In this document: positions 13,811 through 63,490 of the stretch, piece by piece
How the letters are laid out: each line of letters begins with the position of its first letter
Position numbering within the stretch: the first letter of the stretch is position 1
From: Metabacillus flavus
GTDB lineage: Bacteria > Bacillota > Bacilli > Bacillales > Bacillaceae
DNA length: 64,000 nt
Reading direction: 5' to 3'
NCBI RefSeq assembly: GCF_018283675.1
Contig: NZ_JAGVRK010000001.1
Span: 744,001 to 808,000, forward strand
Notes under the pieces: model-generated
Told to the model about the DNA's origin: nothing
What the model saw: the letters and a program-made list of their open reading frames with translations, nothing else
The model's database searches: none
Made by a program: the position numbers and the translations under genes

Positions 13811-13945
13811 AGGAACGGCCAAATTATCAGAGTGACCGGCCCGATAAAATTGATTAGCTAAAAAAGCTTGTCGATCGGTCAGAAACATGGATGGACCGGC
13901 TAAATTAGGACTATGAACGGTCAAATAAAATCAATCGGCTAATTC
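13811..13945. repeat. Degenerate ~21-bp-period array, CGG(C/T) core
   Basis: CGG words begin at 13816, 13837, 13876, 13897, 13918 and 13936, i.e. steps of 21 (or 18, and one double step of 39). Each is in a context like gaaCGGcTaaAt. No coding potential was accepted here. Confidence 0.55.
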
Positions 13946-14030
13946 ATAAGCATTTCAGCACTCTCAACCACCTCCCTAAAAAGTGGTAATATGAAAGAAG
14001 AGCTTACCTACATAAAGGGGAGAAACCAAC

Positions 14031-15257
14031 ATGCAAGCTGCTGAAAGAAGGCCATCGGTCAATCCGACGGTGTATCCGATTCTTTTTGCGATCGGATTTG
14101 TACATTTACTGAATGATACGATGCAATCTGTCGTTCCGGCTGTGTTTCCGATTTTGGAGAGAAGCATGAACCTATCCTATGGCCAGCTGGGGTGGATTGG
14201 GTTTGCGCTTAGTATGACGTCTTCCATTATGCAGCCGGTTGTGGGGTGGCTGACGGATAAAAAAAGTGCTCCGTATGTGCTGCCGTTCGGAATGGGGCTG
14301 TCAATGATCGGGATGCTCGGGCTAGCCTTTGCGCCGAACTTCGGTTTCGTGCTGCTTTCGGTTATTTTCATCGGGCTTGGTTCGGCGGCGTTCCATCCGG
14401 AAGGATCGCGGGTTGCTTACATGGCAGCGGGAGGAAAGCGGGGGCTTGCTCAATCCATTTACCAGGTGGGCGGAAATTTTGGACAGTCGCTTGCGCCGCT
14501 TATGACGATCCTGATTTTCATTCCGTTAGGCCAATTCGGTTCGATTTGGTTTACGCTTGTCGCTGCCTTAGCGGTTTTCGTACTCCTTTTTGTATCAAAA
14601 TGGTACTCAAACCAGCTGATCCGGTTTCCGAAAACAGTAAAAGCGACGGTGAAAACGAAGACCAGAAAACGGACGAAGCAGGTAGGCTTTGCGATTACGC
14701 TGCTCGTTTTCCTCGTATTTGCCCGTTCCTGGTATTCTGCCGGAATCTCAAACTATTTTCAGTTTTACTTGATTGAGGATTATGGAATCTCCATTAAGGA
14801 AGCACAATATTTTATTTTTCTATTCCTTGCTTCCGGGGTAATTGGAACGTTCCTCGGCGGACCGCTTGCCGACCGGTTCGGCAAACGGAATGTCATTTTG
14901 TTTTCGATGGTCGGATCGGCTCCATTTGCGCTCATCCTTCCTCATGTCAGTCTGATATGGGTGTACCCGTTATTCTTTATTATTGGAGTGATTATTCTAT
15001 CAAGCTTTTCCGTTACGGTTGTTTATGCGCAGGAGCTCATTCCAGGAAAGATAGGAACAGTATCCGGGCTTATTGTGGGCTTGGCCTTCGGAATGGGGGC
15101 AATCGGGTCTGCGTTTCTCGGAATGCTTGCGGATGTATGGGGCTTGTATGCAACGATGATTTTGTGCAGTGTGCTCCCGGTGATTGGGATTTTGACCGTG
15201 TTTTTGCCTTCGGATCAGAAGCTGAGGGAGTGGGAAGCGGAGTCTCAAACGCAATAA
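14031..15257 (+). CDS. MFS exporter of the fosmidomycin-resistance (Fsr) type
   Basis: A 408-residue, twelve-helix transporter with AGGGGAG before ATG. 'AIGFVHLLNDTMQSVVPAVFPIL', 'GSAAFHPEGSRVAYMA' and 'GNFGQSLAPL' are hallmark segments of the Fsr subfamily of proton-driven MFS pumps. In E. coli Fsr gives resistance to fosmidomycin, so this protein likely exports a small acidic drug or metabolite. It is transcribed alone, converging on natB across a shared terminator. Confidence 0.8.
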   Translation: MQAAERRPSVNPTVYPILFAIGFVHLLNDTMQSVVPAVFPILERSMNLSYGQLGWIGFALSMTSSIMQPVVGWLTDKKSAPYVLPFGMGLSMIGMLGLAFAPNFGFVLLSVIFIGLGSAAFHPEGSRVAYMAAGGKRGLAQSIYQVGGNFGQSLAPLMTILIFIPLGQFGSIWFTLVAALAVFVLLFVSKWYSNQLIRFPKTVKATVKTKTRKRTKQVGFAITLLVFLVFARSWYSAGISNYFQFYLIEDYGISIKEAQYFIFLFLASGVIGTFLGGPLADRFGKRNVILFSMVGSAPFALILPHVSLIWVYPLFFIIGVIILSSFSVTVVYAQELIPGKIGTVSGLIVGLAFGMGAIGSAFLGMLADVWGLYATMILCSVLPVIGILTVFLPSDQKLREWEAESQTQ

Positions 15258-15296
15258 AAAAAGCAGGCCATCCTTTTGGGATGTGCCTGCTTTTTT
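15256..15296. terminator. Bidirectional terminator between MFS gene and natB
   Basis: AAAAAAGCAGGC...GCCTGCTTTTTT with an inner CATCC/GGATG stem serves both converging genes. The natB stop lies three bases away. Confidence 0.85.
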
Positions 15297-15298
15297 AG

Positions 15299-16465
15299 TT
15301 ATTTCCCCATTACCCACTGATCCTTCTTAAACAGAGAAACCGTGACGGCAAGTACGATGATCATGAACAAAGCGGTGCTTCCGACAGTCAAAAGAATGTT
15401 CTGGACATTAATGATGCCGTAGAGCATTTCTTTTATCAGGGCAAACATATTGATTGCGGGAATGATGAAATGCTGAAAGCTCGTTTCATTTACGCCAGTG
15501 CTTGTTAAGGTGAAGATTGGCAGAATGGGTAGCATCATAATCGGAGTTTGATAGCTTTGGGCCTCTTTTACCGACTTTGAGATAAGACTCGCGAGCATTT
15601 GCACGGATGACATAAAGAGGGCGAACATGACGGATGTTATTAGCGTAATTCCGATAAAAATCCAAACATGATCTCCAAATTGGAGCGCTTCTTTCAATTT
15701 TTCGGTCAAAAAGATAATTTCTAAGCTGACAACGGCAACTGCTGCAACACCGGAAAATACGGCTATGGTGGAGACCGTCAGCCATTTAGCTAAAAGCATT
15801 TTTGTCCGGCTTACCGGTGTAATAAGGAGAGCTTCCATCGTTTTGCGGTCTTTTTCGCCTGCGAATAAATCGGTTGCGGAAGGGTAAGCACCTGATACGA
15901 TTGCCATAGAGATAATCATTGGCAGGAAGTTTGAAAAGATACTTAAGGCGGCAGCACTGTCATCCTCACTGTTCATTTCTTTCGTCGTGACTTCAAGAGG
16001 CTGAATGACCATTGGATCAAGGTTTGCTGCCTGAAGGCGGTTTTTGACTACTCCCTCCTCAAATGCAGTTAGCTGTGCATCAATCATCTCCATTAATACA
16101 GACGAATTTTTGCTGAAGGAATCACCATATAGAGTGGCATTTGCCTGCTGTCCGCTGTTAATTTTCTGCACAAATCCGCTGTCGAATGTAACCGCCGCCT
16201 GAGCATCTCCATCTCTTACGGCTTTTTCAGGATCCGTAAAGCTTTTTGTATTCACATTCTTCAATCCGCTCACCAGCTGTTCTTCATCCTTAGCAATGCT
16301 GGAAGAAACGGCAAGGGTAAAGGTTTGCTTCGAATCTGCCATGATATTTTCGTAAAACAGAGTGAGTCCCGTAAGAACCAGTATTGGAATAAACACTCCC
16401 ATCAGCAGCGTTCTCCGGTCTCGAAGCGAGTCCTTCATTTCCTTTAGATAAATTTTAAGAAACAT
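15299..16465 (-). CDS. natB: ABC-2 type permease NatB
   Basis: A 388-residue membrane protein. One helix near the N-terminus (LLMGVFIPILVLTGLTLFY), a ~150-residue outer domain and five further helices from about residue 180 are the standard ABC-2 exporter layout. It overlaps the end of natA by 11 bases, so translation is coupled. With NatA it forms an ATP-driven exporter that in B. subtilis extrudes sodium. The adjacent NatK-NatR-like pair supports this identity over other ABC-2 exporters. Confidence 0.8.
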   Translation of the reverse strand: MFLKIYLKEMKDSLRDRRTLLMGVFIPILVLTGLTLFYENIMADSKQTFTLAVSSSIAKDEEQLVSGLKNVNTKSFTDPEKAVRDGDAQAAVTFDSGFVQKINSGQQANATLYGDSFSKNSSVLMEMIDAQLTAFEEGVVKNRLQAANLDPMVIQPLEVTTKEMNSEDDSAAALSIFSNFLPMIISMAIVSGAYPSATDLFAGEKDRKTMEALLITPVSRTKMLLAKWLTVSTIAVFSGVAAVAVVSLEIIFLTEKLKEALQFGDHVWIFIGITLITSVMFALFMSSVQMLASLISKSVKEAQSYQTPIMMLPILPIFTLTSTGVNETSFQHFIIPAINMFALIKEMLYGIINVQNILLTVGSTALFMIIVLAVTVSLFKKDQWVMGK

Positions 16466-17204
16466 GGCTTTTCCCCCTTACTAATTTTGACATGAAAATG
16501 TAGTTCAAATCCTTGCTTGCTTCCTCTTGATAAAGGCGCTCTAGATTCCCCTTGTAAACGACTTCTCCTTTATGAATCATGACAACGGAATCGCAAAGCA
16601 TCTGAACCTCTTCCATGATGTGGCTTGAAAAGACAATCGTTTTCCCCTTTGACTTCAGCTGGTGAATCAGCTGGCGGAAGATGTTCGACGACGTGATATC
16701 AAGTCCGGTTGTCGGTTCATCAAACAGGATGATGTCCGGATCATGAATAAGTGTTCTTGCAATCGCGACCTTTTGGCGCATCCCCTTCGAAAAGCCGCCG
16801 ACTTTGCGGTCTAGGTAATCCTTCATCCCGAACATCACGGCAAGCTCATCAATCCGTACCTTTGTTTCATGCTTGCTCATTCCGTAAAGAGCAGCGAAAT
16901 ACTCGAGATTTTCTTTGGCCGTCAGCCTATCGTACAAGCCGGTTTCTCCTCCAAAGAGCACACCGATCCGTTTTTTTACATCAAAGGATTTTTTGACGGT
17001 ATCGAACCCGGCTACGCTGATTGATCCGTCTGTAGGTGTAATAAGGGTTGCAATTGAGCGGAGAAGGGTTGTTTTGCCGGCTCCGTTTTCACCGAGCAGC
17101 CCGACCACTTCTCCCTTTTTCACGTCGAATGAAACATGCTTGAGTGCCGTTACGTATGTTTTTCGATCTTTAAATTGCTTTGTTACTTCTTTTATCTGAA
17201 TCAT
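16455..17204 (-). CDS. natA: ABC exporter ATPase NatA
   Basis: A 249-residue ATPase. ATG 17204 (AGGAGACGAGAGC ahead) is chosen over an in-frame start 39 bases upstream. Walker A 'GLLGENGAGKTTLL', signature 'GGFSKGMRQKVAIAR', Walker B 'IILFDEPTTGLD' and the H-loop 'SSHIMEE' are all present. It powers NatB at the membrane. natAB is divergent from natR-natK with LytTR-type repeats between, so NatR probably activates it. Confidence 0.85.
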   Translation of the reverse strand: MIQIKEVTKQFKDRKTYVTALKHVSFDVKKGEVVGLLGENGAGKTTLLRSIATLITPTDGSISVAGFDTVKKSFDVKKRIGVLFGGETGLYDRLTAKENLEYFAALYGMSKHETKVRIDELAVMFGMKDYLDRKVGGFSKGMRQKVAIARTLIHDPDIILFDEPTTGLDITSSNIFRQLIHQLKSKGKTIVFSSHIMEEVQMLCDSVVMIHKGEVVYKGNLERLYQEEASKDLNYIFMSKLVRGKSHVS

Positions 17205-17273
17205 GCTCTCGTCTCCTTTTCTGCTGGTTTCTTTCGTTATCATACCTGGTGGAATCCGGTGAATCTGCGAAGT

Positions 17274-17303
17274 TGTCGCGAAAACGCCTTTTCCTGTCGC
17301 GAA
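17274..17303. promoter_or_regulatory. Direct repeat TGTCGCGAA x2, probable NatR (LytTR) binding site
   Basis: TGTCGCGAA occurs exactly twice, at 17274-17282 and 17295-17303, 21 bp apart and on the same strand. LytTR regulators bind such paired repeats. The site lies between divergent natA and natR, and TACAAT (17328-17333) is a plausible -10 for natR just downstream. Confidence 0.65.
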
Positions 17304-17367
17304 TGGGTCAAAAAGGGAATCTTAAATGTTACAATAATGGTGGAATTTGTTTACTAGGAGCAGAGCG

Positions 17368-18069
17368 ATGATCAAAGTAGGATTAGTAGATGACCGGATG
17401 ATAGATCTGGATAAACTGAAGGGCATTGTGTCCAAAATGGATGAAATCAAGATCTTTTTTGCGACCCAATCTGCAGAAGAAGCGTATGAGTATGTAAAAA
17501 GGGAAGAAGTGGATCTGCTGATTGCCGACATTGAAATGCCAGAGCTGTCAGGCTATGAGCTTGCCGATATCATCCATACCCATGCCCTCAGTATTGCGGT
17601 TATTTTTGTAACAGCGACTAGCGGCTACGCCGTGCATGCATTTGAACTGAATGTGCATGATTACATTATGAAGCCGTATACGAAAGACAGGCTGGAAAAA
17701 TCGATTCAGCGCTACATAGAAAAAACCCACTCCTCTGAAATTGCGGGAAGACTGTTTTTAAAGCAAAAATCAGAGATTCATATTGTTCAAAAGAAAGAGA
17801 TTATTTTTATCGAACGGACGGGCCGGTCTACAACCATTTATACAAAGTCCGGCCAGGTCAAAACGTATCAGACGCTGAATGAACTGGAAGGGGAGCTGAG
17901 GGAACGGGATTTTATCCGCTCTCACCGTTCATTTATTATCAACATTCATTTTGTGAAAAACTTTTCGATTTATACGAAAACGACGTATATGGTTTCCTTT
18001 GAGGGAATTGAAGAAAAAGCGATGATTACAAAAGAGCAGATTGATTTTATTCAATCTCATTACTTTTAA
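17368..18069 (+). CDS. natR: LytTR response regulator NatR
   Basis: A 233-residue protein. ATG 17368 with AGGAG upstream is preferred to an in-frame TTG at 17347. The receiver domain has the acidic pair 'LVDD' and phospho-acceptor Asp54 in LLIADIEMPELSGYEL, then 'VTATSGYAVHAFELNVHDYIMKP'. The C-terminal LytTR DNA-binding domain (about 135-233) contains 'IIFIERTGRSTTIYT' and 'FIRSHRSFIINIHFV'. It is followed 14 bases later by its kinase gene. Confidence 0.85.
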   Translation: MIKVGLVDDRMIDLDKLKGIVSKMDEIKIFFATQSAEEAYEYVKREEVDLLIADIEMPELSGYELADIIHTHALSIAVIFVTATSGYAVHAFELNVHDYIMKPYTKDRLEKSIQRYIEKTHSSEIAGRLFLKQKSEIHIVQKKEIIFIERTGRSTTIYTKSGQVKTYQTLNELEGELRERDFIRSHRSFIINIHFVKNFSIYTKTTYMVSFEGIEEKAMITKEQIDFIQSHYF

Positions 18070-18083
18070 GGCGGAGATGATGA

Positions 18084-19043
18084 ATGAAAGGAATGATTTA
18101 CGCGGCGTCCGCGGGAATCGGAGTTTATTTTTTGATTTTGATGATAGATGTCCTGCCTTTATGGGCGGCTGCCATAGCTGCGGTTGTTTTTATTTACGCA
18201 GGAGTTAAGCATTGGTTCAGGAATATCGTGTATGTCCAGCAATCTATGAATGGAACGCTGACTGGCATTCAGCTGCTGCTTGCGATCAGTGCTTGGCAGG
18301 CTCCTATTCCGGTTCGCTGCCTGCTTTTCCTTGTATTTTCCGGATTGGAATATGTCCGCTTTTTAATAGGAAAACAGTCAAAGGCAACAGACCGGAAAAT
18401 GACTCAGCTTCTCGATGCACAGAATACGGTCAACGAAACCTTCCGGGTGGTCCGAAGCCAGCGGCATGACTACATGAAGCATATTTCAGCCGTCCACTAT
18501 CTATTGGAAAAGGGGAGGTATAGCGAAGCGAAGGAGTATATGAACGGCCTTGTCCGCACCTATGAAGAGACGAATATCTCTATAAAAGGCGAGGACGGGG
18601 TAGCGGCGGGAATTCTGCATGATGTCTACCGGCGAGCAGACAGTCTCGGAATTCAGATCGCTTATGAATTCGATTTGCCGATCTCCACCTTGCCTATGCA
18701 CCCGGTTGACCTGGTCGGTTTGCTTGGAAACATGCTCTCCAACGCAATCGAGGCTTGCGAGGAATCGATTCGTGAGGGGCAGAAAGATCCGATGCTGACC
18801 GTCCGATTTGAGAAAAGAAGCGGGGTTTATCTCCTTGTTTGCCGGAACTCAAGTGTTCAGCCTCCAAACGAGGTGCTGGATGTTCTTTTTGAAAAATCAG
18901 GCCGCTCCACAAAAGGACAGGAAGGCCTTGGTACAAAAGTGATAGCAGATACAGTCAAACAATACGGCGGCTTTCTCGATTTTACATACAAGGAACACAT
19001 TTTTACGCTGAAGCTGAAATTTCCTTCGATAGGGAGGAGCTGA
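18084..19043 (+). CDS. natK: Sensor histidine kinase NatK (GHKL type)
   Basis: A 319-residue protein with GGCGGAG before ATG. Three or four N-terminal helices (to about 95) form the sensor. 'RSQRHDYMKHISAVHYLLE' carries the phosphorylated His128 in the relaxed H-box typical of LytS/AgrC-like kinases. 'LVGLLGNMLSNAIEACEES' is the N box and 'GLGTKVIADTVKQYGG' the G box. The Spo0B-like architecture agrees with a LytTR partner. Confidence 0.8.
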   Translation: MKGMIYAASAGIGVYFLILMIDVLPLWAAAIAAVVFIYAGVKHWFRNIVYVQQSMNGTLTGIQLLLAISAWQAPIPVRCLLFLVFSGLEYVRFLIGKQSKATDRKMTQLLDAQNTVNETFRVVRSQRHDYMKHISAVHYLLEKGRYSEAKEYMNGLVRTYEETNISIKGEDGVAAGILHDVYRRADSLGIQIAYEFDLPISTLPMHPVDLVGLLGNMLSNAIEACEESIREGQKDPMLTVRFEKRSGVYLLVCRNSSVQPPNEVLDVLFEKSGRSTKGQEGLGTKVIADTVKQYGGFLDFTYKEHIFTLKLKFPSIGRS

Positions 19044-19044
19044 T

Positions 19045-20040
19045 ATGGAAAACCTTGATATTGCGGAAAGTATGAAGGAGTACCATATTGCGGGTGCCGG
19101 CATTGCCTTAATTCAGGACGGCCGAATCAGCCGGAAAGCAGGGTTTGGAGTGCTTGAAAGAGGGCAGGAGGAGAGAGTTACGGCTGATACCGTGTTCAAT
19201 GCTTGTTCCATCAGCAAATTTGCTGCAGCGATGCTTGCCCTGCGACTAGTAGGTGAAGATATTCTTGCTTTGGATGAGGATGTGAATATAAGGCTGAAAT
19301 CATGGAGAGTCCCGTCAAATGGTTTTACGCAGCCTGTAACGCTCCGTCTGCTTTTAAGCCACCAATCAGGCATAAAGGATCCAGGCGGAAGTTTTATGGA
19401 ATTGGATTTTTCAAGGTCAGCTCCATCTATTATAGAGATTCTTGAGGGGACAACACCTTATTGCCCGGAGCCTGTAAACATCAAGTATGAACCTGGAACA
19501 GAGTTTCATTATTCAGATGCCGGATTTTGTGTGCTGGAGCAGTTGATTCATGATGTGACAGGTGTAACGTATGAGGAATTGCTAAAAAGCAAGGTGCTGA
19601 ATCCACTCGGCATGGATGGCAGTACATTAAATGTTTTAGGTGCTCATGCGGCAGCGGGCCATGATCGAGAAGGCAGTTTACTGGAGGAAAAGTATCCGGT
19701 ATATCCATACCCTGCAGCTGCAGGTTTATGGTCAAGCGCGGCTGATCTTGGAAAGCTTTTTGGTGAATTGCTTGATGCCATGAATGCAAGAAGCAAATTG
19801 GGTATATCCCAAAAACTTGCGGAAGAGATGATTCGTTCTCAGGGCTGTTCACCGTGGACGGGATTAGGGGTTTTTGTAAACGGAGAGGAAATTTCCTCGC
19901 TTGGCTGGGGCAAAGGGTTTCAAAGTATGGCGGTCGTTTATCCCCGCCTTGGCACTGGGGCAATCATCATGACGAACACGGATACGGGTTTCCATCAAAG
20001 GAATGGGTGGATTGGGGAGACTATAGAACGTATTCTCTAG
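19045..20040 (+). CDS. Serine hydrolase of the beta-lactamase/class C family
   Basis: A 331-residue protein starting one base after the natK stop region (AGGGAGGAG upstream). 'SISK' (Ser55-x-x-Lys58) is the catalytic pair, 'FHYSDAGFCVLEQLI' holds the Y-S-D/N motif, and 'LGWGKGFQSM' takes the place of the KTG box. There is no signal peptide, so it is probably a cytoplasmic esterase or peptidase rather than a secreted beta-lactamase. Its tight spacing puts it in the natR-natK transcript, which is unusual. Substrate unknown. Confidence 0.75.
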   Translation: MENLDIAESMKEYHIAGAGIALIQDGRISRKAGFGVLERGQEERVTADTVFNACSISKFAAAMLALRLVGEDILALDEDVNIRLKSWRVPSNGFTQPVTLRLLLSHQSGIKDPGGSFMELDFSRSAPSIIEILEGTTPYCPEPVNIKYEPGTEFHYSDAGFCVLEQLIHDVTGVTYEELLKSKVLNPLGMDGSTLNVLGAHAAAGHDREGSLLEEKYPVYPYPAAAGLWSSAADLGKLFGELLDAMNARSKLGISQKLAEEMIRSQGCSPWTGLGVFVNGEEISSLGWGKGFQSMAVVYPRLGTGAIIMTNTDTGFHQRNGWIGETIERIL

Positions 20041-20061
20041 CTAGAGTAATGAGAAACAAGT

Positions 20062-20097
20062 TGAAAACGCTTGGATGTCATTTTCCATGCGTTTTGC
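20062..20097 (+). terminator. Possible terminator after the serine hydrolase
   Basis: AAAACGCttggatg...CCATGCGTTTT forms an imperfect stem shortly after the stop, with only a short T-run. The remaining ~170 bases to the next gene hold repeated TTTTGCA(A/G) words and no gene. Confidence 0.45.
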
Positions 20098-20272
20098 AGT
20101 GGATTATGCAATAGAGGCTTTCCTCAAACAATCGACCTTTTGCAATAGCTTACGTTCCATTTTGCAGTCCCTTAGCTTGAATTATTTTTTGAAATTAATG
20201 GACCGGGCTCTTCTTTTGGAGGGGGAGCATGTTTGATTCGATAATAAATAACCTGCAGGAGGACAGGAAGCG

Positions 20273-20899
20273 ATGAAACAATTCCAAAACATCATAGAAT
20301 CAGCGGAACAGCTGGATGAGATATGGGGAAAACCGGGTAAGCTCGCTTCAAGCAAGGTCATTGACCACTTAGATCACCACTGTATAAACTTTCTATCTCT
20401 CTCCCCATTTGCATTGATCGGTACTTCCAATTCTAATGGAGAATGTGATGTTTCTCCCCGGGGAGACCATCCCGGTTTTATACTGATATTGAATGAAAAG
20501 CAGCTTGTCATACCAGAGCGTCCAGGAAACAAACGATTGGACTCCATTCGCAATCTATTAGAAAATCATCATGCAAGTCTGTTATGTCTGATTCCTGGTT
20601 TAGATGAGTCGCTTAGAATAACGGGGAAAGCTTCTGTCATCAGAGACCAGGATATTCTGGAGCAAATGCAGGCAAGAGGGAAAACTCCGATTGCAGGAAT
20701 TGCAATAGAAGTAGAGGAGTGCTTTATTCACTGCGGAAAGGCACTGAAGCGATCACATCTTTGGGATAGCGATGAATGGCCGGCAGAAGAATTGCCTAAA
20801 GTAAATGAAATATTGGCGGATCATGCGAAATGTAAGGAATTTGATGCTGAAAGTGTGGCTGCTGCTCTGGAAGAAAGCTACAAGAGGAGATTATATTAG
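20273..20899 (+). CDS. Pyridoxamine 5'-phosphate oxidase-fold FMN-binding protein
   Basis: A 208-residue protein with CAGGAGG before ATG. 'FALIGTSNSNGECDVSPRGDHPGFI', 'LVIPERPGNKRLDSIRNLLEN' and 'LRITGKASVIRD' are the split-barrel flavin-binding strands of the MSMEG_1061-type PNPOx-like family. The C-terminal 'AIEVEECFIHCGKALKRSHLWD' is also conserved. It probably binds FMN or F420-like cofactor and reduces an unknown small molecule. It converges on the amidase gene across a repeat-filled spacer. Confidence 0.75.
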   Translation: MKQFQNIIESAEQLDEIWGKPGKLASSKVIDHLDHHCINFLSLSPFALIGTSNSNGECDVSPRGDHPGFILILNEKQLVIPERPGNKRLDSIRNLLENHHASLLCLIPGLDESLRITGKASVIRDQDILEQMQARGKTPIAGIAIEVEECFIHCGKALKRSHLWDSDEWPAEELPKVNEILADHAKCKEFDAESVAAALEESYKRRLY

Positions 20900-20940
20900 C
20901 AAATAGTTCTTTTGAGGCTGGCTGCATATTGCTGATCTAA

Positions 20941-21040
20941 TATATCGACCGAAATAAAAATATATCGACCGAAAAAAAGTTATATCGACCAAAATAAAAA
21001 TATATCGGCTATTTTTTTGATATATCGACTTTTCGACATG
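20941..21040. repeat. Five 20-bp tandem units, TATATCGACC core
   Basis: TATATCG starts at 20941, 20961, 20981, 21001 and 21021, an exact 20-bp period. The first three units are nearly identical (TATATCGACCGAAATAAAAA); the last two diverge after the core. It sits between converging genes. Confidence 0.85.
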
Positions 21041-21095
21041 AAGTGACAAATTCCGCCGGCCGTTATGACCGCCAACTTCATACGCATCCCTAAAC

Positions 21096-21170
21096 CCAAC
21101 CCAACCCAACCCAACCCAACCCAACCCAACCCAACCCAACCCAACCCAACCCAACCCAACCCAACCCAAC
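21096..21170. repeat. Pentanucleotide microsatellite (CCAAC)15
   Basis: Fifteen perfect CCAAC copies in a row, just downstream of the amidase terminator. All three frames stay open through it because five is not a multiple of three, which creates spurious long reading frames of Gly-Leu-Gly-Trp-Val type. Such tracts are prone to slippage. Confidence 0.95.
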
Positions 21171-21178
21171 CCCAAACC

Positions 21179-21213
21179 AAAAGGATGCCCCCAAAAAAAA
21201 TGAGGCATCCTTT
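21179..21213 (-). terminator. Terminator of the amidase gene
   Basis: On the reverse strand AAAGGATGCC...GGCATCCTTT has ten-base arms around an A/T-rich loop, immediately after the amidase stop. Confidence 0.75.
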
Positions 21214-21215
21214 CC

Positions 21216-22235: not shown

Positions 22236-22296
22236 CTCTCTATATAGCTTGTTTATGTTTCTGGGAAAACATCGTTCCGAGGATTCGACAAAATGG

Positions 22297-22463
22297 TTAT
22301 CCACACAAAATTCGCACAATATAGAATAATTCAAGAGTTATCAACGTTATCCACACCTAAAACGACGAGAAATTGATGATATTGTGGATAGAGGGTTGTT
22401 GTCCTAAGCGTGATCCACACATTTTTCCACAATATCAACAGGGGTGTGAATAACTTATGCACA
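22297..22463. promoter_or_regulatory. Cluster of DnaA boxes
   Basis: Two perfect TTATCCACA boxes (22297-22305, 22347-22355) and six one-mismatch boxes occur in 167 bp: TGTGGATAG 22384, TGATCCACA 22411, TTTTCCACA 22423, TGTGAATAA 22445, TTATGCACA 22455 and a weaker TTATCAACG 22338. They fall between the divergent amidase and nagA genes. It looks like a DnaA-binding cluster of the kind found away from oriC in B. subtilis. Confidence 0.75.
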
Positions 22464-22588
22464 GCTTTTGCGGAAATTGTAGAATGGCGCGGAGCGATAT
22501 TGCTACATAAGAAAAACGTTCGGTTAAGATATACAAATTGGTTTCTGTAAAGGATCGGATGGGGAAAATTACGATGCTGATTTTTATA

Positions 22589-30044: not shown

Positions 30045-30252
30045 AGCTGAAGCGGGTGGTTTCGGCTGGTTCTAAGGTGAAGGTGGCTGAAAAGAAGGCG
30101 AGTTTGGCTGGAAGGAGATTCGGGTCGGCTGGAAAAATCAGTTTGGCTGGAAAGCCGCTGGTATCGGCTGAAATCGGGATCGAAGTGGCTGATATAACAT
30201 TGAAATCGGCCGCAAAGAGAAGGGGATCGGCTGGAAAAGCACATTACGATGG
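30045..30252. repeat. Ten-unit 21-bp-period array, GGCTGgAAA core
   Basis: GGCTG (or GGC) words start at 30064, 30085, 30106, 30127, 30145, 30166, 30187, 30208 and 30229. Every step is 21 bp except one of 18. Sequence between words is degenerate. One frame stays open and reads heptads like GSAGKIS and SLAGRRF, but there is no ribosome site or start, so it is treated as non-coding. Confidence 0.8.
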
Positions 30253-30292
30253 AAAATTTGTTTATTCCAGCAGCTGCAGTCCAAACCAATCA

Positions 30293-37529: not shown

Positions 37530-38108
37530 TAGGATGCCAGGCAAACATCAAATGAGCGTGGATGCCAGGGAAGAATGCCAGGCAAACCTCAAATGAGCGG
37601 GAATGCCAGGGAAGAATGCCAGGCGAGAATGCCAGGCAAACTTCAACTGAGCGGGGAATGCCAGGCAAGAATGCCAGGCAAACCTCAAATGAACGTGAAT
37701 GCCAGGGAAGAATGCCAGGCAAACTTCAACTGAGCGGGGAATGCCAGGGAAGAATGCGGCAAACTTCAACTGAACGGGAATGCCAGGCAAGAATGCCAGG
37801 CAAACTTCAACTGAGCGGGGAATGCCAGGGAAGAATGCGGCAAACTTCAACTGAACGGGAATGCCAGGCAAGAATGCCAGGCAAACCTCAAATGACCGTG
37901 AATGCCAGGCAAGAATGCCAGGCAAACATCAAATGACCGTGAATGCCTGGGAAGAATCCCAGGCAAACTTCAACTGAGCGGGGAATGCCAGGCAAGAATG
38001 CCAGGCAAACCTCAAATGAGGGGGAATGCCAGGGAAGAATGCCAGGCAAACCTCAAATGAACGTGAATGCCAGGCAAGAATGCCAGGCAACAATGCCAGG
38101 CAAACATC
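37530..38108. repeat. Long tandem array of GAATGCCAGGcAA / caaacCTCAAaTGAgCGG units
   Basis: About thirteen units of ~27-54 bp fill the spacer between mutY and yfhS. Each joins one to three copies of the palindromic word TGCCAGGCA (or TGCCAGGGA) to CAAAC(C/T)TCAA(A/C)TGA(G/A)CG. Units fall into two alternating subtypes (CCTCAAATGA and CTTCAACTGA). Reading frames through it on both strands are by-products of the repeat. Confidence 0.85.
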
Positions 38109-42780: not shown

Positions 42781-42900
42781 GGGAATAATGCTAGCTGTTT
42801 AGGATAATTGCTGACTTTTTGGGATAATTGCTGACTTTTTGGAATAATTGCTGACTTTTCAGGATAATTGCTGACTTTTTGAAATAATTGCTGACTTTCG
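42781..42900. repeat. Six 20-bp tandem units, GGATAATTGCTGACTTTTT
   Basis: Units start at 42781 (degenerate), 42801, 42821, 42841, 42861 and 42881, an exact 20-bp period; the last five share ATAATTGCTGACTTT. The 1.2-kb gap that contains it holds no supported gene. A short open piece near 42905-43051 (HPGDFMDVSGILNS...) may be a remnant, and AAGCTCTCC...GGAGGGCTTTTT (43161-43187) is a lone terminator. Confidence 0.9.
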
Positions 42901-43558: not shown

Positions 43559-43735
43559 GGCTGAAAAACGTCCAGTATCGGCTTGAAAAAGAAGATTGGC
43601 TGGAACCCCAGGTGAACGGCTCAAAAAGAACCGCACCCGGCCAGCTGGGAAGCGCCGAGCTCTGGCTGGAAAATAAGGTTTGGCTGGAAACCCCAGGTGA
43701 ACGGCTGAACAGCGTTCCGCCTGGACTGCAAAAAG
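43559..43735. repeat. ~21-bp-period array, GGCTGgAAa core
   Basis: GGCT-type words start at 43559, 43580, 43598, 43618, 43639, 43664, 43682, 43703 and about 43723, mostly 18, 20 or 21 bp apart. GGCTGGAACCCCAGGTGAACG occurs twice. The core is the same as in the array at 30045. It fills the leader of the importer operon. Confidence 0.7.
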
Positions 43736-53442: not shown

Positions 53443-53446
53443 GGCT

Positions 53447-55462: not shown

Positions 55463-55527
55463 AGTTTGTCCTTCCTTTCTCAGATAAAAAGGAAGAGGGT
55501 GGATGACGGCTCTCTTCCTTTTTACGT

Positions 55528-56772: not shown

Positions 56773-57853
56773 ATTGCTTCCTCCCTAATTGGTGCTGATT
56801 GATTTTTTAATTTTGGAAAAACAAGCTCTGCAAAACGGTACGCCTCTTCAAGATGCGGGTAGCCAGAGAGAATAAAGGTATCAATTCCAATATCCTCGTA
56901 TTCTCTCAATCTTTCAGCGACGATATCTGGATCTCCGACAATGGCGGTACCAGCGCCTTCTCTTGCAAGTCCCACACCTGCCCATAGATTAGGTGAAATC
57001 TCTAAATCTCTTCTGGACTTGGATCCGCCATGAAGGGATGATTGGGTCTTCTGCGCGGTTGAATCAAAGATAGAAAATCTCTTTTGGAAGCTTTCAATCG
57101 TGTCATCTGTTACATATTGGATCAGTTCTTCCGCTGCAGCCCATGCAGCCTGTTCGGTTTCTCTCACGATGACATGCATACGCAGACCAAATCTCATTGT
57201 TTTTCCGGCAGCCTTTGCCTGCTTTTTCATCTCCTCTACTTTTTTTCTTATTTTTGCAGGGGGTTCCCCCATAACAAATGAACATCAGCGTGCTTCAGCC
57301 CAACCCGCTTGCCGGCATCTGAGGAGCCTCCAAAATAGATTGGGGGATAAGGCTGCTGGATGGGCTTTTCCGGTACATGGGCACCCGTAACAGAAAGGTG
57401 CTTTCCTTCGAAATCAACCGTTTTGCCTTGAAGAACATCCCTCCAGATGGTTAAAAATTCATCAGTGAGGTCATATCTTTGGTCATGGTTGAGATAATTC
57501 CCAAAGCCTGCCTGCTCAGCCGGATTCCCGCCGGTAACAATGTTAAGGAGGAGGCGGCCATTCGACAGCTGATCAAAGCTTGCAGCCATTCGGGCAGATA
57601 GGGTAGGGGACATTAAACCGGGCCGTAATGCCACCAAAAATTTCAAACGCTCTGTTACCGATGCAAGCATTGAGGCGGTAATCCAAGCATCCTCGCAATT
57701 TGCTCCGGTTGGCAGCAGAGCGCCGTCATAGCCGAGAGTGTCTAAAGCTCCTGCAATTTGCTTTAAGTAAGAAAGATCGCTTTTTCGGGCTCCTTGAAGG
57801 GTACCTAAATAGCGTTCGTCTCCTGCAGTTGGAAAAAACCAGAAAAGATTCAA
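56769..57853 (-). pseudogene. ssuD: SsuD-like FMNH2-dependent sulfonate monooxygenase, one frameshift
   Basis: Two abutting frames make one ~361-residue LLM-class monooxygenase. The first (TTG 57853, AAGGGGAG upstream) runs 'FWFFPTAGDERYLGT', 'LLPTGANCEDAWITASMLASVTERLKFLVALRPG', 'LLLNIVTGGNPAEQAGFG' to '[27 protein letters not shown]'. The second continues '[13 protein letters not shown]', '[14 protein letters not shown]', '[23 protein letters not shown]' and '[21 protein letters not shown]'. The break is in a GGGGG-AA-CCCCC run near 57259-57270; one extra G restores the frame. It may be a sequencing error or a recent mutation. SsuD releases sulfite from alkanesulfonates. Here the neighbours are a sugar importer, not SsuABC, and no flavin reductase gene is present. 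Confidence 0.85.
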
Positions 57854-57906
57854 TTTTTTTCTCCCCTTATCGTTATGTTTGATGGAAAAATGGAAGTTTA
57901 AACAGG

Positions 57907-57947
57907 AAAAAGGCGCCTGCTTACCTTGGGAGTAAGTAGACGCCTTC
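57907..57947 (-). terminator. Terminator hairpin in the leader of the SsuD-like operon
   Basis: On the reverse strand AAGGCGtCTaCTTAC TCCCAAG GTAAGcAGgCGCC is followed by TTTTT, about 25 bases after the predicted transcription start and ~55 bases before the gene. It can act as an attenuator. Confidence 0.7.
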
Positions 57948-57979
57948 AGTTTCTCTGATCAGCTCATATCATTTGTTAT

Positions 57980-58009
57980 ATTTTAATGTATATAATTCCG
58001 ATCAGTCAA
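57980..58009 (-). promoter_or_regulatory. Promoter of the SsuD-like operon with CymR-like box
   Basis: Reverse strand: TTGACT (58009-58004), 18 bases, TAAAAT (57985-57980). ACTGATCGGAATTA overlaps and follows the -35, containing the ATNGGAATTA core of CymR boxes, so sulfur (cysteine) supply probably controls it. Confidence 0.6.
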
Positions 58010-58042
58010 GTGTGTATTTAAATTTTTTTGGAGGAAAGTCGG

Positions 58043-58301
58043 TGGTGCCTGACCCGCACTTTATTAGAGAAGTAAAGCTTCGGCACCATTTCCGCCATCC
58101 GCTGCGGCGCAAGGGCTGGTTAGACATGGCCTCTGTCCCCCGCTGCGGTGAAGAATGACGGGACTGGCACCGTGCCAGTCCCCGGTTTCTCTGCAGAACG
58201 AAAGCTCCGGCACCTGCTCCTCCAAACCTTGGTAACAAAGGGTTTAAACACCCCCGTCTCCGTCCCCTTATGCTTTAAAGCAAGCCGGGACAGGCACCCT
58301 T
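58043..58301 (+). repeat. ~260-bp dispersed repeat, right copy flanking the sulfonate operon
   Basis: Same order of blocks and same orientation as 53447-53711, with the central GGGACTGGCAC and GTGCCAGTCCC arms. The two copies are 4.3 kb apart and bracket the SsuD-like operon. Confidence 0.85.
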
Positions 58302-58324
58302 ATAAAAGTAAAAAAATTCCACCA

Positions 58325-58357
58325 AAAAAGAACCGGCCCCTAAAGGCCGGTTCTCAC
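58325..58357 (-). terminator. Terminator of the glutamate synthase gene
   Basis: AGAACCGGCC TTTA GGGGCCGGTTCT followed by TTTTTTGG on the reverse strand, after the stop at 58371. Confidence 0.85.
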
Positions 58358-58370
58358 ATATCAACCAAAA

Positions 58371-61300
58371 TCACTCGGTAGAAACAGAAGGATCTGCCTG
58401 TTCCTTAGCCGGTACGAGCTGCAGGAAGTGCTGCGCCGGATTGTCGAGCAGAGGTTTTAATTCTTCCGCTTCTGCCTGCTGGCCATGTTCTTCAAGTGCG
58501 GCAATGTAGACGCCTAGCAGTTCTTGAATATCGGACAGACCTTTTTTGTTGAGATGGGCAATTTCAACCTTCGCTCCTTTAGCGACTCGGCGCTCAAGCG
58601 CAGATTGAGTGAGTCCCATTTCAGGCTGCTGACGGACATAGACGACTCCGCCTGTCATCCCTGCGCAAATCCATGGACCCGGGTCGCCGAGGACAAGGCC
58701 GCGGCCGTTTGTCATGTACTCGAAGGCAAAGCCCTTGATGTTCGCGTTGACTCCGATGTTTCCGTGTTCTACTGCTGGAATCGGCTTTTCGATGCGGCCT
58801 CCGATGATCATGTCGGCGCCGGATAGACGAATGCCGGCTCTTGCATCTGCATCTCCCTGAACGAGAAGGGTACCGCTTTGTGCACCATAGCCGAAGCCTT
58901 TTCCGACAGAGCCGCTATAGAATTCACCGTCTCCGCCTTTTCCTTTAAGGACACGGATCGCGCCGCCGAAGGACGTTTTTCCGGTTCCATCCTGTGCACC
59001 GCCTTCAACGGAGATCGTGATTCCGCTTGAGTTGTAGGCGCCGAGTCCGTTACCGGGAACCGAGCCGTTTTTGTACGTCAAGCGGATATCTTCAAGCTCC
59101 CTATAGGATCCGTCAAGACGCTCGCGCACTCGATGGCCTGACACCCGGCTTCCGAGAACGCGCTGTTCGGAGGTGATGCTTGCAAATTCTCTGGATTGAT
59201 GAAGATCTTCATCCCTGTAATCCAGGTATTCTGCTCCTGCCGCAACGGCAAGACCGCGTTCCTGGCTGCTTGCTGCAACCTCTTTATGAGCGCTCGCAAG
59301 GTTCTGGATTTCAAGAGGTTTAAGCAATAAGGAAAGATCCATTGCATCGGTCTCTTTTGTTTGTTCAAGCAGATCGGAACGGCCTACAATGCTTTGAAGA
59401 TTCGTAAAGCCTAGTGAAGCGGTCAAAGCTTTCAGTTCGCTTCCGAATGCCGTGAACATGTTCTTTAATCCCTGAACGGCATTATCGTATTGTCTTGGAA
59501 CGAAGCGCCTTAAACCGTGTTCTTTTGCCTGTGCTTCGGATTCGATTTGCGTTGCAATTCCGACATGGCACGTATCCAGATGACAGCCGCGGCACGTTGT
59601 ACAGCCGATGGCGATCATAGACAGGGTTCCGAAGCCGATGCGGTTGGCACCAAGGAGCATGAGCTTTACAACGTCCATTGCGCTTTTTACGCCTCCGTCT
59701 GCCCATAGCTCGACCTTCTGGCGCAGTCCTGCTTCAAGAAGGGCATTATGAGCAGCCTTTACACCGATTTCAACGGGAAGCCCTACATACTGAAGAGCAT
59801 GAATTCTCGCTGCCCCCGTACCGCCGTCAAATCCGCTTAGAGTAATGATGTCAGCGCCTGCCTTGGCAATTCCGACAGCGATGGTTCCGATATTCGGCAC
59901 AACCGGCACCTTTACCGCGACCTTTGCCTGATCGTTTGCTGTTTTCAGCTCGGTAATCATTTGCGCAAGGTCTTCAATGGAATAGATATCATGGTTGTTT
60001 GATGGTGAAATCAAATCAGAGCCAATCGTTGCATTCCGTGCTTCCGCAATTTTCGCTGTTACTTTTGATCCCGGCAGGTGGCCGCCTTCTCCAGGCTTTG
60101 CCCCCTGGCCAATTTTGATTTCGAGAAGGTTGGAAGAGTTCAGCAGCTCTGCGTTGACTCCGAATCGTCCGGATGCAACCTGCTGGCCGCGCGTTTTCGG
60201 ATATTTGCCGAGCATATCCTTGATTTCTCCGCCTTCACCGTTCAGGCTGACCATATTCAGCTGATCAGCTGCTTCCGCATAGGCGCGGAACGCGATTTCG
60301 TTCTGGGACCCGAAGGACATGGAAGCAATGATAAACGGCAGGTCATGCTCTCCGACCCTTAAATCCACCTTATCCGGGTTTACGCTTGAATCTGTTTGCT
60401 TCAGGCTAGTCAGATGGCGAATCGTAATCGGATTTGCTTCCTCCTGCTCGGTAATTTTTTCGCGGTATGCATCATAATCACCATTGGCAGCCACATCTCC
60501 AATCGCTTTCCAGATCCTTGGGAACAGATGAAAGGTTTTAGTCGGACGGGCTTTTTCATTTTCAAAATCCTCTGCCCGCTCTATGGCATCTGTTTTCATC
60601 TGATTGAAATTGTAGCGCAGCTCATTTGAACCAAGGAAGTTCGGAATATCAAGCAAGTCACCGATTTCATGGTTAAGCCCGATAGCTGAAAACAGGCGTC
60701 CATACCCGCGCAGTTCGTGAATGCCGATCGTTGAAATGACTTTTTCCAGACCTTTATTCAGTGCTTCAAAAAGATTAATAGAAGGCTGTGTCTGGCCATC
60801 CTCCGCTACTGTCGCAAAAATCATGTACGGGTTCAGGATATTCGCACCAAGTCCATATGCTGTAATGATGTCATGCAAGGAACGAATCGCTCCGGAACGG
60901 AGGAGAATCGAACAGTTTCTGCGCAGCTGCATGGTCACAAGGGTCTGATCGATGATAGACGTAATCAAGTGAGGGTCAATCCACAGATTTCCGTCTTTAT
61001 GTGCAAGATGATCGTCCAGTACAAGCAGTGCAGCACCATCGCGGACCGCTTGAATCGCTTCCGCAGAAAGGCGGTCAAGTGCTTCCTTCAGGGATTCATT
61101 TTCAGAGAAAACGGTGTTTAAAACATAAAGCTGTTTATTTCTGGAAAAAATTTCGGATAATTCTTCATATGGCAGCTGATAGGACGCTTCAAATGCTTCA
61201 TGAGCGAGGAGGCCTTCCATAATGATCGGGGAAGGAAGCTCTAAAATATGCTCAGAAGTTTTCGCATCAAACAGGGACGGCCGTTTTCCGACAATCGTAC

Positions 61301-62903
61301 GGGTTGAGAAATGTTCGGATTCCCGGTCCCGGTCAATAGCTGGGTTTGTTACGACTGCTACGCTTTCCTTAAAGAAGTCCGCCAGGTTTTTCCGGCCTGG
61401 ATGAATGGCGGCAAGCGGACCGTCATGTCCAAGAGAACGAATCGGTTCAACGCCTTTATCCGCCATTTGTTCGAGCATCTGTATATGCTCCCTGTCCCAG
61501 CCGAATGCTGCATAATGACCGTTATGAAGCTTCATAACTGGTGATGTTGAGCATTTTCCTTTTGAAACAGGATGATTCAAGTGGGTGCCAAAGCCATCAA
61601 CCTGAACGCGGCTTGTAAAGCGGCCATGAACTTCCTCCTGATAAGCAGGATAATCATAGACTTTGATGGTGTCCTCATCCCATTTCAAGCCAACTTTTTC
61701 ACCCGGTGCAAGCGGCTTCGGGTTTGCCATGTATTCACTAGCCGGAATGATGCCGGGCTCTGATGCAAAAATATAGGAAGTTTTTGTTTCTACCTTCCAA
61801 AGCGGACGAAGCCCCAGAGCATCAACGCTGTACACTGCTTCATCCCCGAATCGGGAAATGATGCCCGCGGGACCCTGTGCGAAATGACCCCAGGCCTCCC
61901 GAATATACGTATACAGATTTTTCAGGTGGTCCGGATAGGACTTAATTTCATTAATAATAGGAGGGAACAGGACGTCAAGTGCTTCAAATAAGCTATATCC
62001 GTCACGGCATACAAGGGTCTCAATTGTCCTGTTCAAATCCTGTGAATCACTTCCGCCGATGGTGAGAGGGGCACCAATCATGCGCGCCTCATCGCGAAGC
62101 TTTGAAATGGTATTGATTTCACCGTTGTGGCCGAGCATGCTGAACGGCTGCACACGGAAAAAGTTTGATAGGGTATTAGTTGAATAGCGGTTGTGGCCGA
62201 GAGTCATGGAAGACGCCACTAGCGGATCTGCCAGGTCATGATAATACTGCGGCAAAACGTCTCCGGCGCCCATTACCTTGTAAACTGCGGCATGCTGGCT
62301 TAGGGAAGCCGCATGGATATGCTCATCCTTTTCAAGTTCAATAGCCAAGTCAAATAGGCGTTTGGCAAGTGTTTCATTGGTTTTTTTTACAGGAATCAGG
62401 GCAGTCTGCCAGAAAAGAGGCTCCTCCTGAACTGCAATCGGACCAAGTGCGTTAGAAGATGTAACTTTGTCCGTTTCAAAAACAATTTCAAAACCGTAGG
62501 ATGCAATATGCTTTATTGCGGCTTTCTTCGACTCTGACTGATTGCCATGGCGGGATAAAAAGAAATGGCCGACTATAAAATCGTCTCTGTCAGCCAGTTT
62601 TGTATCGGCACCGGCCTGTTCAAGCTTTTGCTTCCAGAGATTGCGCGGGATATCAATGTGAATGCCTACGCCGTCGCCTTCTTCATTAATGAAGCCTGCG
62701 CGATGGTTCATCGTGACAAGGGCTTTAATACAAGCATCGATGTTCTCTTTCGTCGGTATTTTATGTTTTTCTACTATTGAAACAATACCGCATGCATCGT
62801 GCTCTGCGTTTTCATAGTTTTTGAATGTACTGGGACTCCACTTTTGCTTCATATTAATCGGCTGCCATGAGGGAACTTTATATTCCGCTCGCTGCGCCTT
62901 CAC
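58371..62903 (-). CDS. gltB: Glutamate synthase large subunit
   Basis: A 1510-residue enzyme in the usual order. A class II glutaminase domain follows a ~37-residue propeptide, with nucleophile Cys38 in EHDACGIVSIVE. Next come a central domain, the FMN/synthase barrel ('KIGQGAKPGEGGHLPGSKVT', 'SNNHDIYSIEDLAQMI', 'LSGFDGGTGAARIHALQYVG') and the GXGXG domain near the C-terminus. The iron-sulfur segment is CTTCRGCHLDTCHVGIATQ, with one Cys more than the usual C-x5-C-x4-C. It makes glutamate from glutamine and 2-oxoglutarate. No gltD lies nearby, so the electron donor is unclear. GTG 62903 overlaps its AGGAGG site and ATG 62852 has none, so the start is uncertain. Confidence 0.85.
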   Translation of the reverse strand: MKAQRAEYKVPSWQPINMKQKWSPSTFKNYENAEHDACGIVSIVEKHKIPTKENIDACIKALVTMNHRAGFINEEGDGVGIHIDIPRNLWKQKLEQAGADTKLADRDDFIVGHFFLSRHGNQSESKKAAIKHIASYGFEIVFETDKVTSSNALGPIAVQEEPLFWQTALIPVKKTNETLAKRLFDLAIELEKDEHIHAASLSQHAAVYKVMGAGDVLPQYYHDLADPLVASSMTLGHNRYSTNTLSNFFRVQPFSMLGHNGEINTISKLRDEARMIGAPLTIGGSDSQDLNRTIETLVCRDGYSLFEALDVLFPPIINEIKSYPDHLKNLYTYIREAWGHFAQGPAGIISRFGDEAVYSVDALGLRPLWKVETKTSYIFASEPGIIPASEYMANPKPLAPGEKVGLKWDEDTIKVYDYPAYQEEVHGRFTSRVQVDGFGTHLNHPVSKGKCSTSPVMKLHNGHYAAFGWDREHIQMLEQMADKGVEPIRSLGHDGPLAAIHPGRKNLADFFKESVAVVTNPAIDRDRESEHFSTRTIVGKRPSLFDAKTSEHILELPSPIIMEGLLAHEAFEASYQLPYEELSEIFSRNKQLYVLNTVFSENESLKEALDRLSAEAIQAVRDGAALLVLDDHLAHKDGNLWIDPHLITSIIDQTLVTMQLRRNCSILLRSGAIRSLHDIITAYGLGANILNPYMIFATVAEDGQTQPSINLFEALNKGLEKVISTIGIHELRGYGRLFSAIGLNHEIGDLLDIPNFLGSNELRYNFNQMKTDAIERAEDFENEKARPTKTFHLFPRIWKAIGDVAANGDYDAYREKITEQEEANPITIRHLTSLKQTDSSVNPDKVDLRVGEHDLPFIIASMSFGSQNEIAFRAYAEAADQLNMVSLNGEGGEIKDMLGKYPKTRGQQVASGRFGVNAELLNSSNLLEIKIGQGAKPGEGGHLPGSKVTAKIAEARNATIGSDLISPSNNHDIYSIEDLAQMITELKTANDQAKVAVKVPVVPNIGTIAVGIAKAGADIITLSGFDGGTGAARIHALQYVGLPVEIGVKAAHNALLEAGLRQKVELWADGGVKSAMDVVKLMLLGANRIGFGTLSMIAIGCTTCRGCHLDTCHVGIATQIESEAQAKEHGLRRFVPRQYDNAVQGLKNMFTAFGSELKALTASLGFTNLQSIVGRSDLLEQTKETDAMDLSLLLKPLEIQNLASAHKEVAASSQERGLAVAAGAEYLDYRDEDLHQSREFASITSEQRVLGSRVSGHRVRERLDGSYRELEDIRLTYKNGSVPGNGLGAYNSSGITISVEGGAQDGTGKTSFGGAIRVLKGKGGDGEFYSGSVGKGFGYGAQSGTLLVQGDADARAGIRLSGADMIIGGRIEKPIPAVEHGNIGVNANIKGFAFEYMTNGRGLVLGDPGPWICAGMTGGVVYVRQQPEMGLTQSALERRVAKGAKVEIAHLNKKGLSDIQELLGVYIAALEEHGQQAEAEELKPLLDNPAQHFLQLVPAKEQADPSVSTE

Positions 62904-63261
62904 CTCCTGCTGATAAATGTTGAAATGGTAAGTAAGATTGAAGAGTAATAGGATGTAAAAATAGGGCGGAGAAAAGAAAAGTAAACAGTGCCGGACAAGT
63001 ATTGAACCTGCACTGAATTTATATAATTTTCAGAATTGTAGCTTTTATCATACCATCTAAGAAAAACATTTTCAATTATTTATGCAAAATGATGAAAGGA
63101 GCATTCATGTCAACAACTATGGCATATTTGTTCCAAACGCTCGTATGCATGAATAAGTAAGCGTTTTCATAGGAGTGTTTAAAAAGAATCAGAGAATGAA
63201 AGTGTAGTTTAATTGTATAATAGTGTATTTTTATACAGTTAGTTTATAAGAGGAGGAAATT
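62904..63261. other. Upstream region of gltB, no gene seen
   Basis: About 350 bases of A/T-rich DNA between the repeat array and gltB. AGGAGG lies at the gltB edge; AATTGTATAATAGTG (about 63211) contains a -10-like TATAAT. No clear TnrA, CcpA or GltC site was identified. Confidence 0.3.
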
Positions 63262-63490
63262 TGCCGGGCGGCCCGTATATGGAACGTACTGGCGCGTAAG
63301 TGCGGTTAGATGGCACGTATTATTCTGCGGAACTTGGCCTGTAAACAGTGCCGGATGGTCCGTATTTGGAACTTGGCCCGCAAATAGCCTCAAATGGCCC
63401 GAATTCGGGGAAACTTGGCCCGGAAACCGCCGAAAATGGCCCGTATTGAGGAAAACTTGGCCCGTAAACGGCCGTGGGTGGCCCGGAAAT
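63262..63490. repeat. Array of TTGGCCCGtAAAC / TGGCCCGTATT words, ~21-bp steps
   Basis: Words TTGGCC(C/T)G(T/C/G)AAA start near 63334, 63373, 63416 and 63457, and alternate with TGG(C/T)CCG(T/A)ATT at 63356, 63395, 63437 and 63479. The composite period is ~42 bp, made of two ~21-bp halves. The left part (63262-63333) is degenerate. The reverse frame reads GPS-FP-YGP heptads but has no start signal. Confidence 0.75.

Follow-up and report, generated by a model that had tools for sequence, protein, structure and literature searches.

The window, a stretch of 64,000 nucleotides (positions 744,001–808,000 of a 4.03-Mb Bacillaceae genome, here G000), contains arrays in which a short word recurs as direct repeats at regular distances (Table 1). 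Six of these had been listed in an initial annotation as a family phased at 20–21 bp and located entirely between genes, a placement that holds on our own gene calls. When each stretch was scored against 200 dinucleotide shuffles, five of the six proved to be far beyond chance, with 0/200 shuffles reaching the score of the arrays or chains at 20940, 30064, 42789, 43644, and 63336, but the one at 13811 is weak, its score being reached by 14/200. A 41-bp array not on the earlier list has its score reached by 5/200 shuffles, yet is plain to TRF (score 730). The array at 63270 ends next to a terminator-like hairpin belonging to a class-III aminotransferase gene. Three other features of the window may be mentioned. 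Positions 1407–3230 encode a protein with LXG and pre-toxin (PT-TG) domains, probably an LXG-class polymorphic toxin. A dispersed repeat of about 128 bp (GGTGCCAGAGCTTTAGTCCGGTAAAATTTGAGGGGACTGGCACGGTGCCAGTCCC...) is found in tandem at 13560–13800 and at other intergenic sites of G000 and of three of the comparison genomes, G003, G004, and G005 (including blocks A113 and D133). A perfect, telomere-like microsatellite (AACCC, 16 copies, 21093–21172) adjoins the TATCGAC array and has just a few copies in the orthologous regions of G003 and G004.

Table 1. Repeat arrays of the window (positions are those of the window; steps are distances between successive words).
Feature	Position	Strand	Word	Steps (bp) and remarks	Basis
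Weak array	13811..13955	+	CGGYYAAA	Best chain 13876–13943: 21,21,18	Shuffles and inspection by eye
TATATCGAC/GGC array, five words	20940..21030	+	ATATATCG	Four steps of 20	Shuffles, TRF
GGCTGGAAA array	30064..30256	+	GGCTGGAA	21,21,21,18,21,21,21,21,18 (plan of the 102-bp superunit); leading strand	Shuffles
41-bp family, paired words	37534..38103	+	AATGCCAGG(C/G)AA		TRF
ATAATTGCTGAC array, six words	42789..42898	+	TGCTGACT	Five steps of 20	Shuffles
GGCTGGAAA array upstream of an oligopeptide-type ABC operon	43559..43735	+	GCTGGAAA	Chain from 43644: 21,18,21,21	Shuffles
GGCCCGTAAA array, eleven words	63270..63488	+	GGCCCGTA (chain from 63336)	21,21,24,21,18,21,21,21,21,21; chain from 63336: 21,18,21,21,21,21,21	Shuffles

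The periodicity is not confined to the window. Autocorrelation was calculated for 372 intergenic regions, each 80 bp or longer, taken from an 850-kb sample (the window, 39 stretches of 20 kb, and the 5.6-kb contig 2). The initial annotation had expected an excess of 20–21-bp periodicity over shuffled intergenic sequence throughout the genome, and in this sample, which is less than the whole genome, such an excess is found: 737 matches at lag 20 (321 ± 32 shuffled), 782 at lag 21 (315 ± 27), 1413 at lag 41 (276 ± 27), and 919 at lag 42 (288 ± 17), with lag 63 also raised (473, against 282 ± 16). At the neighboring lags the counts are 334 vs. 321 shuffled (19) and 373 vs. 300 (22). Further lags are up as well, namely 13 (2.6-fold), 54 (2.4-fold), 69 (2.1-fold), 18 (1.9-fold), 9 (1.8-fold), and 28 (1.8-fold); those at 13, 28, and 54 fit the 41-bp family, and those at multiples of three are due in part to genes missed by the gene caller, for example at 20273–20899. 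An array finder that presupposes steps of 17–23 bp gave a score of at least 4 to 19 of the 372 regions, against 0/372 with one shuffle each, and a few of the 19 (L016:7632, L040:18056, perhaps L046:5787) look by eye like coding sequence or other repeats.

Each array had at first been credited with a core word of its own. Words do differ by species, and several of them share one architecture, but a given word recurs at many loci of a genome. By our reading of the listings there are about eight word families in the genus, here represented by six genomes: G000, the genus outgroup G001, Metabacillus mangrovi KCTC 33872 (G002), the draft assembly of Bacillus sp. SJS (G003), G004, and G005. The unit of the GGC-word family is a superunit of 102 bp, with words at 21, 21, 21, 21, and 18 bp. 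Fifteen arrays from G004 and G005 comprise 389 steps: 299 are of 21 bp, 77 of 18, 10 of 20, two of 24, and one of 17, the 18-bp step usually coming after each fifth word. At 10.5 bp per turn, an 18-bp step is out of phase with one of 21 bp, and only as a mean over the superunit (20.4 bp) are the steps near two helical turns. Most loci have a similar short linker (approximately AAANAGTTT), and the long linkers are mostly private to each locus, recurring by superunit. The AACGG(A/C)CA family is organized likewise, its 18-bp steps being separated by three or four of 21 bp. Steps in other families are 20 bp (TATCGAC), 20 or 21 bp (TTGCTGAC), and 41 bp (AATGCCAGGCAA). With 9–39 bp allowed between ATAATTGCTGAC and TTGCTGAC, 49 of 51 listed pairs are at 20 or 21 bp; such pairs are found in five of 80 family genomes, all five within the window's genus, and the reversed pattern in none. 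Pairs of TATCGRC, sought in G000 at 13–25 bp, are at 20 or 21 bp in 68 of 72 cases; here the reversed control gives 10. In the outgroup G001, TATCGGCGGAT recurs every 20–21 bp in arrays whose superunits are longer (about 256 bp on contig 30); these may be one more dialect of the TATCGAC family.

Related genomes use different forms of the same word. The GGC word is GGC(T/C)GGAAA in G003 and G004, mostly GGC(A/G)GGAAA in G005, and GGCACGTAA in M. mangrovi. Pairs of GGCNGGAAA, with 15–25 bp allowed between words, number 5 in G000, 81 in G003, 85 in G004, and 107 in G005, with none in G001 or G002 and 0 for the control in all six; GGCNCGTAA pairs number 47 in G002 and five in G005 and are absent from the other four. 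Counted by locus, the majority word is GGCTGGAAA at 12/13 loci in G004, 5/5 in G003, and 4/4 in G000, GGCAGGAAA at 5/6 in G005, and GGCACGTAA at 12/14 in G002, where the remaining two have GGCACGAAA. Words in G005 are mixed, position 4 being A in 56%, G in 21%, C in 18%, and T in 5%, or 23% C or T. The 41-bp family behaves similarly. In blocks of about 200 kb from G000, G003, G004, and G005, AATGCCAGG(C/G)AA occurs 22, 11, 13, and 0 times and ATG(C/T)CCGGGAA 1, 0, 0, and 53 times, and at the site after mutY the word has changed in place, G005 having ATG(C/T)CCGGGAA. In some families, it looks as if all of a genome's loci had switched to a new word jointly, with the intervening letters left to drift.

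Sites shared between genomes show how such changes are distributed. G002 has two sites in common with the G000/G003/G004 group at which the majority word has changed, one between nlpC/P60 and GNAT genes and one between genes that we take to be metK and pckA. Four sites are common to G005 and the G000/G003/G004 group; the majority word has changed at three, and the other (L203/L216, compared with G004) is mixed. Orthologs of the array at 20940 are found in G003, G004, and G005 with words in register and differing linkers, those of G005 differing most. The array at 43559 has orthologs of 23 units each in G003 and G004 and of 50 units in G005, with the word GGCAGGAAA. At the site of the 30064 array, M. 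mangrovi has GGCACGTAA and Bacillus sp. SJS a TTGCTGAC array on the opposite strand. A short linker starting AATCAG is found at just three of 42 GGC loci, which are the nlpC/P60-GNAT site of G000, of G004, and of G002; the remaining 39 lack it. Since it survives across the word change, this array was probably inherited, with the word altered in situ. Replacement of blocks is possible as well, because at the nlpC-GNAT site of Bacillus sp. SJS (B139, L049:3603) there is a TTGCTGAC array on the other strand, vs. GGCTGGAAA in G004 (C157) and G000 (A153), inside an intergenic region whose first half is nearly identical to that of G004.

Arrays of this kind are also found outside the genus. Of 80 mutY loci from named genomes, covering about 20 kb per genome, 13 have an intergenic region scoring at least 4 and six one scoring at least 5, against 0/754 shuffled regions. 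The six are from Bacillus sp. SJS, M. mangrovi, two Allobacillus, and two Sporolactobacillus genomes; the Bacillus subtilis-group mutY loci in the list have no array in the 20 kb or so covered. Two of the 13 regions (L087, L090) are clusters of TTATCCACA, presumably DnaA boxes. Allobacillus halotolerans has 159 units of CTTCAGTGTTAA at 16 loci, with 141 steps of 21 bp and two of 20. In a count of pairs in Allobacillus for which 15–27 bp were allowed, 62 of 64 were at 21 bp and two at 20, with 0 for the control. The Allobacillus windows also hold several further words. Sporolactobacillus shoreae has eight pairs of GCTCCTAAC on three contigs. In these two genera the words found at 21 bp are unrelated ones.

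The initial annotation had suggested that the spacing keeps the words on one face of the helix, and the composition of the linkers supports this. In comparison with controls that keep the words and shuffle the linker inside each unit, A/T power in the GGC family is raised at a period of 10.25 bp (z = 5.9 in G002, 6.6 in G004, 9.1 in G005) and in Allobacillus at 10.5 bp (z = 12.5), although units share ancestry and z is not the probability of independent trials. No excess over the linker shuffles was seen at 9.5, 11, or 12 bp. Within the unit, the linker A/T is at positions 18–20, about one turn past the AAA of the word.

A word common to unrelated loci, linkers that are mostly private, and joint change within each genome are most simply explained by a factor acting in trans that reads the word, and phased A/T together with constant spacing suggests a row of protein on one face of the helix. 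Tentatively, the likeliest reading is that the arrays are rows of sites for putative sequence-reading proteins. Each array would supply a sequence-specific DNA-binding protein with a row of sites, and each word family would have a protein of its own. A unit would offer a word of 9–12 bp and a weaker A/T contact one helical turn further, and neighboring copies, lying on one face, could support a cooperative nucleoprotein filament or wrap. The protein would hold the word constant and leave the linkers free save for their A/T phasing, and if its specificity drifted in a lineage the words at its loci would follow. The role proposed is local chromosome organization, with a polarity relative to the replication fork. 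The protein, its cooperativity, and its co-evolution with the words are all three what we infer from sequence. Against binding sites it can be said that about eight word families in one genus would need several proteins, that the 18-bp step breaks the phase, that the G005 dialect is mixed, that some families lack a strand bias, and that blocks are replaced as well.

A possible but somewhat less likely alternative is a self-propagating satellite, in which an enzyme nicking, copying, or converting at the word, or slippage on one template strand, spreads and homogenizes the words with no need for a host function. Comparison of copy number between relatives, one of the checks first proposed, speaks for this. 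At five loci shared by G003 (a draft) and G004, unit numbers are 21/37, 20/30, 23/28, 23/18, and 23/23; the four that differ do so by 16, 10, 5, and 5 units, three of these differences being whole superunits, and a unit appears to have been exchanged inside one array. A mechanism that creates such arrays, which had been raised initially beside selection for one helix face, may thus still be at work. The private long linkers mean, however, that a converting enzyme would replace just about 9 bp at once, and a satellite does not predict the A/T phasing of the linkers. One 1-kb array of G005 has no blastn match on plasmids or phages, and a mobile element was rejected on this basis; in viral contigs two of the words give 19 and four stretches, with a single pair in each.

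The strand on which the arrays lie can be considered under both readings. The first gene of the G000 contig looks by eye like dnaA. Sampled stretches have positive GC skew as far as 1.9 Mb and negative skew from 2.0 Mb onward, with a single exception among the 39 (at 3.7 Mb), so the plus strand of the window was taken as leading. GGC words in the pattern with 18-bp steps are on the leading strand at 12/12 loci of G004, on the plus strand at 0.21–1.45 Mb and the minus strand at 2.43–3.39 Mb (the contig starts at dnaA; the position of the terminus is presumed). They are also on the leading strand at 6/6 loci of G005, the origin of which was put near 0.33 Mb by reference to the second RemA-like gene: in G000 and G004 this gene is 4 kb away from the origin, and in G005 it sits at 0.335 Mb. 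In G002, local GC skew calculated without the arrays matches their strand at 14/14 loci. Over five genomes there is agreement at 38 of 42 loci, and the four exceptions are one orthologous locus. By our grouping the 42 loci represent 27 unique sites, of which 17 are between co-directional genes, six convergent, three divergent, and one with an unknown flank. By majority call none is antisense to both neighbors; at the nlpC-GNAT site of one genome (C157), a small minus-strand ORF called on the left would make it so. Transcription was rejected as the cause of the orientation because the leading strand is kept at convergent and divergent sites too. The leading-strand rule suggests that the GGC family is tied to replication, through its function or through array growth, and for a satellite it is what would be expected of a one-strand process at the fork.

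The other families examined show no such bias or a weaker one. By our reading, leading-strand bias is absent from TTGCTGAC in G004 (about 3/6 loci, one of them near the presumed terminus) and from the 20-bp TATCGAC family in G000 (5/14), and it is not visible in the ATAATTGCTGAC word family. In Allobacillus, orientation agrees with 20-kb GC skew at 15/16 chosen loci, or 15/18 if two opposite-strand arrays in the same windows are added; with 7-kb stretches 15/16 agree too, the exception being another locus (L275, vs. L278 at 20 kb). Three of the 16 are antisense to both called neighbors. Gene orientation alone might nearly give the 15/18, which makes this evidence weaker than that of the GGC family.

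It is improbable that these are ordinary minisatellites (VNTRs) of slippage origin in neutral decay. Amplification of superunits and the copy-number changes between G003 and G004 are as expected of them, but unrelated loci have the word rather than the long linkers in common, and the word shifts jointly across the genome. In 4,875 pairs of units from the same locus, selected to have a linker identity below 0.5, the difference is 0.70 for linkers and 0.17 for words, the units having been chosen by word. In orthologous arrays of G003 and G004, differences are found at 19 of 882 word and 51 of 1116 linker positions (Fisher p = 0.003), although word conservation is partly built in because units were picked by word, with a finder that admits near matches only; one locus supplies 13 of the 19 and 28 of the 51. 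There is similarly little likelihood that the arrays act at the RNA level, as leaders, 3′ ends, or small RNAs. Some of them precede an operon (43559) or adjoin terminator-like hairpins (63270), which would suit this, but folding is inconsistent in five stretches (z = −2.6, +2.4, −1.4, −1.9, and +0.3), an Rfam search of the window gave no match, and the contexts of the 27 unique GGC sites are mixed. That they are the remains of repetitive protein genes is hardly credible and was rejected: 18, 21, and 102 are multiples of three, as are 378 of the 389 steps, and the minus strand is often open, but eleven steps are 20 or 17 bp, other families step by 20, 41, or 20/21, and all three minus-strand frames are poor in stops, a result of composition.

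Two well-known kinds of array can be compared. Plasmid iterons are direct repeats near 20 bp, two turns apart, which adjoin the gene of a replication initiator. The spacing is similar here, but each genome has the GGC arrays examined at a dozen or more places on the chromosome, with varied genes around them, and the starts of flanking proteins at 15 GGC loci look by eye like those of varied chromosomal proteins rather than of initiators. CRISPR arrays have repeats of about 21–48 bp with unrelated spacers of similar length, in contrast to a word of 9–12 bp and a linker of 9–12 bp here, with linkers recurring by superunit.

No description of such arrays was found in the literature searched, which was open-access PMC only. 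They are intergenic direct repeats whose nearest described relatives are the STAR elements of Staphylococcus. As presented in the main text of Purves et al. (2012; PMC3532100), STAR elements are likewise intergenic direct repeats with a conserved word, changes in copy number within loci, uneven distribution among related species, and no known function; their spacers are distinct per locus and the word common between loci, as is the case here apart from the short linker, which is similar across loci. Their word, T(G/A/T)TGTTG(G/T)GGCCC(C/A), is GC-rich and 14 bp long, and is distinct from those found here (GGCTGGAAA, GGCACGTAA, ATAATTGCTGAC, TATCGAC, CTTCAGTGTTAA, and others). Words in STAR elements are separated by at least 40 bp, in contrast to the 17–24-bp steps here, and their sites differ between species, whereas the present arrays are organized in superunits, belong to several word families, differ in dialect between species at shared sites, and in one family favor the leading strand; the term “leading strand” is absent from that main text.

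For the binding of such DNA, RemA and LrpC sites offer a possible model. In the account given in PMC8481266, RemA protects at least six 7-bp regions spaced 3 bp apart upstream of PepsA, and its octameric ring is proposed to wrap DNA. The sites are poorly conserved repeats bound with helical periodicity, as may be the case here, but their period is 10 bp (PMC8481266). Contact with A/T once per turn on one face would be matched here by the A/T power at 10.25–10.5 bp. RemA-like genes, one candidate for the nucleoid protein first suggested, are present in two copies in 40/40 family genomes searched, and with so constant a count they fail by themselves to explain arrays or dialects. The periodicity of phased A-tracts (PMC3940949, PMC3372288) is similar in that A/T runs are phased with the helix, but as described there the signal is statistical and has neither defined words nor superunits nor dialects of species.

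The binding-site reading can be extended to a chromosome-wide address system, in which a dedicated protein would polymerize on helix-phased words at dozens of intergenic sites, with a polarity set by the fork and a lineage-private, co-evolving code; in this full form it is rather unlikely. If no protein reads the words, the arrays would represent a bacterial satellite with concerted change of a short word, strand bias, and free linkers, for which slippage alone would be insufficient. If a protein does read them, these genomes would preserve, at shared sites, a history of DNA-binding specificity having changed repeatedly and genome-wide, and protein-DNA co-evolution could be tested directly by swapping arrays between sister species.
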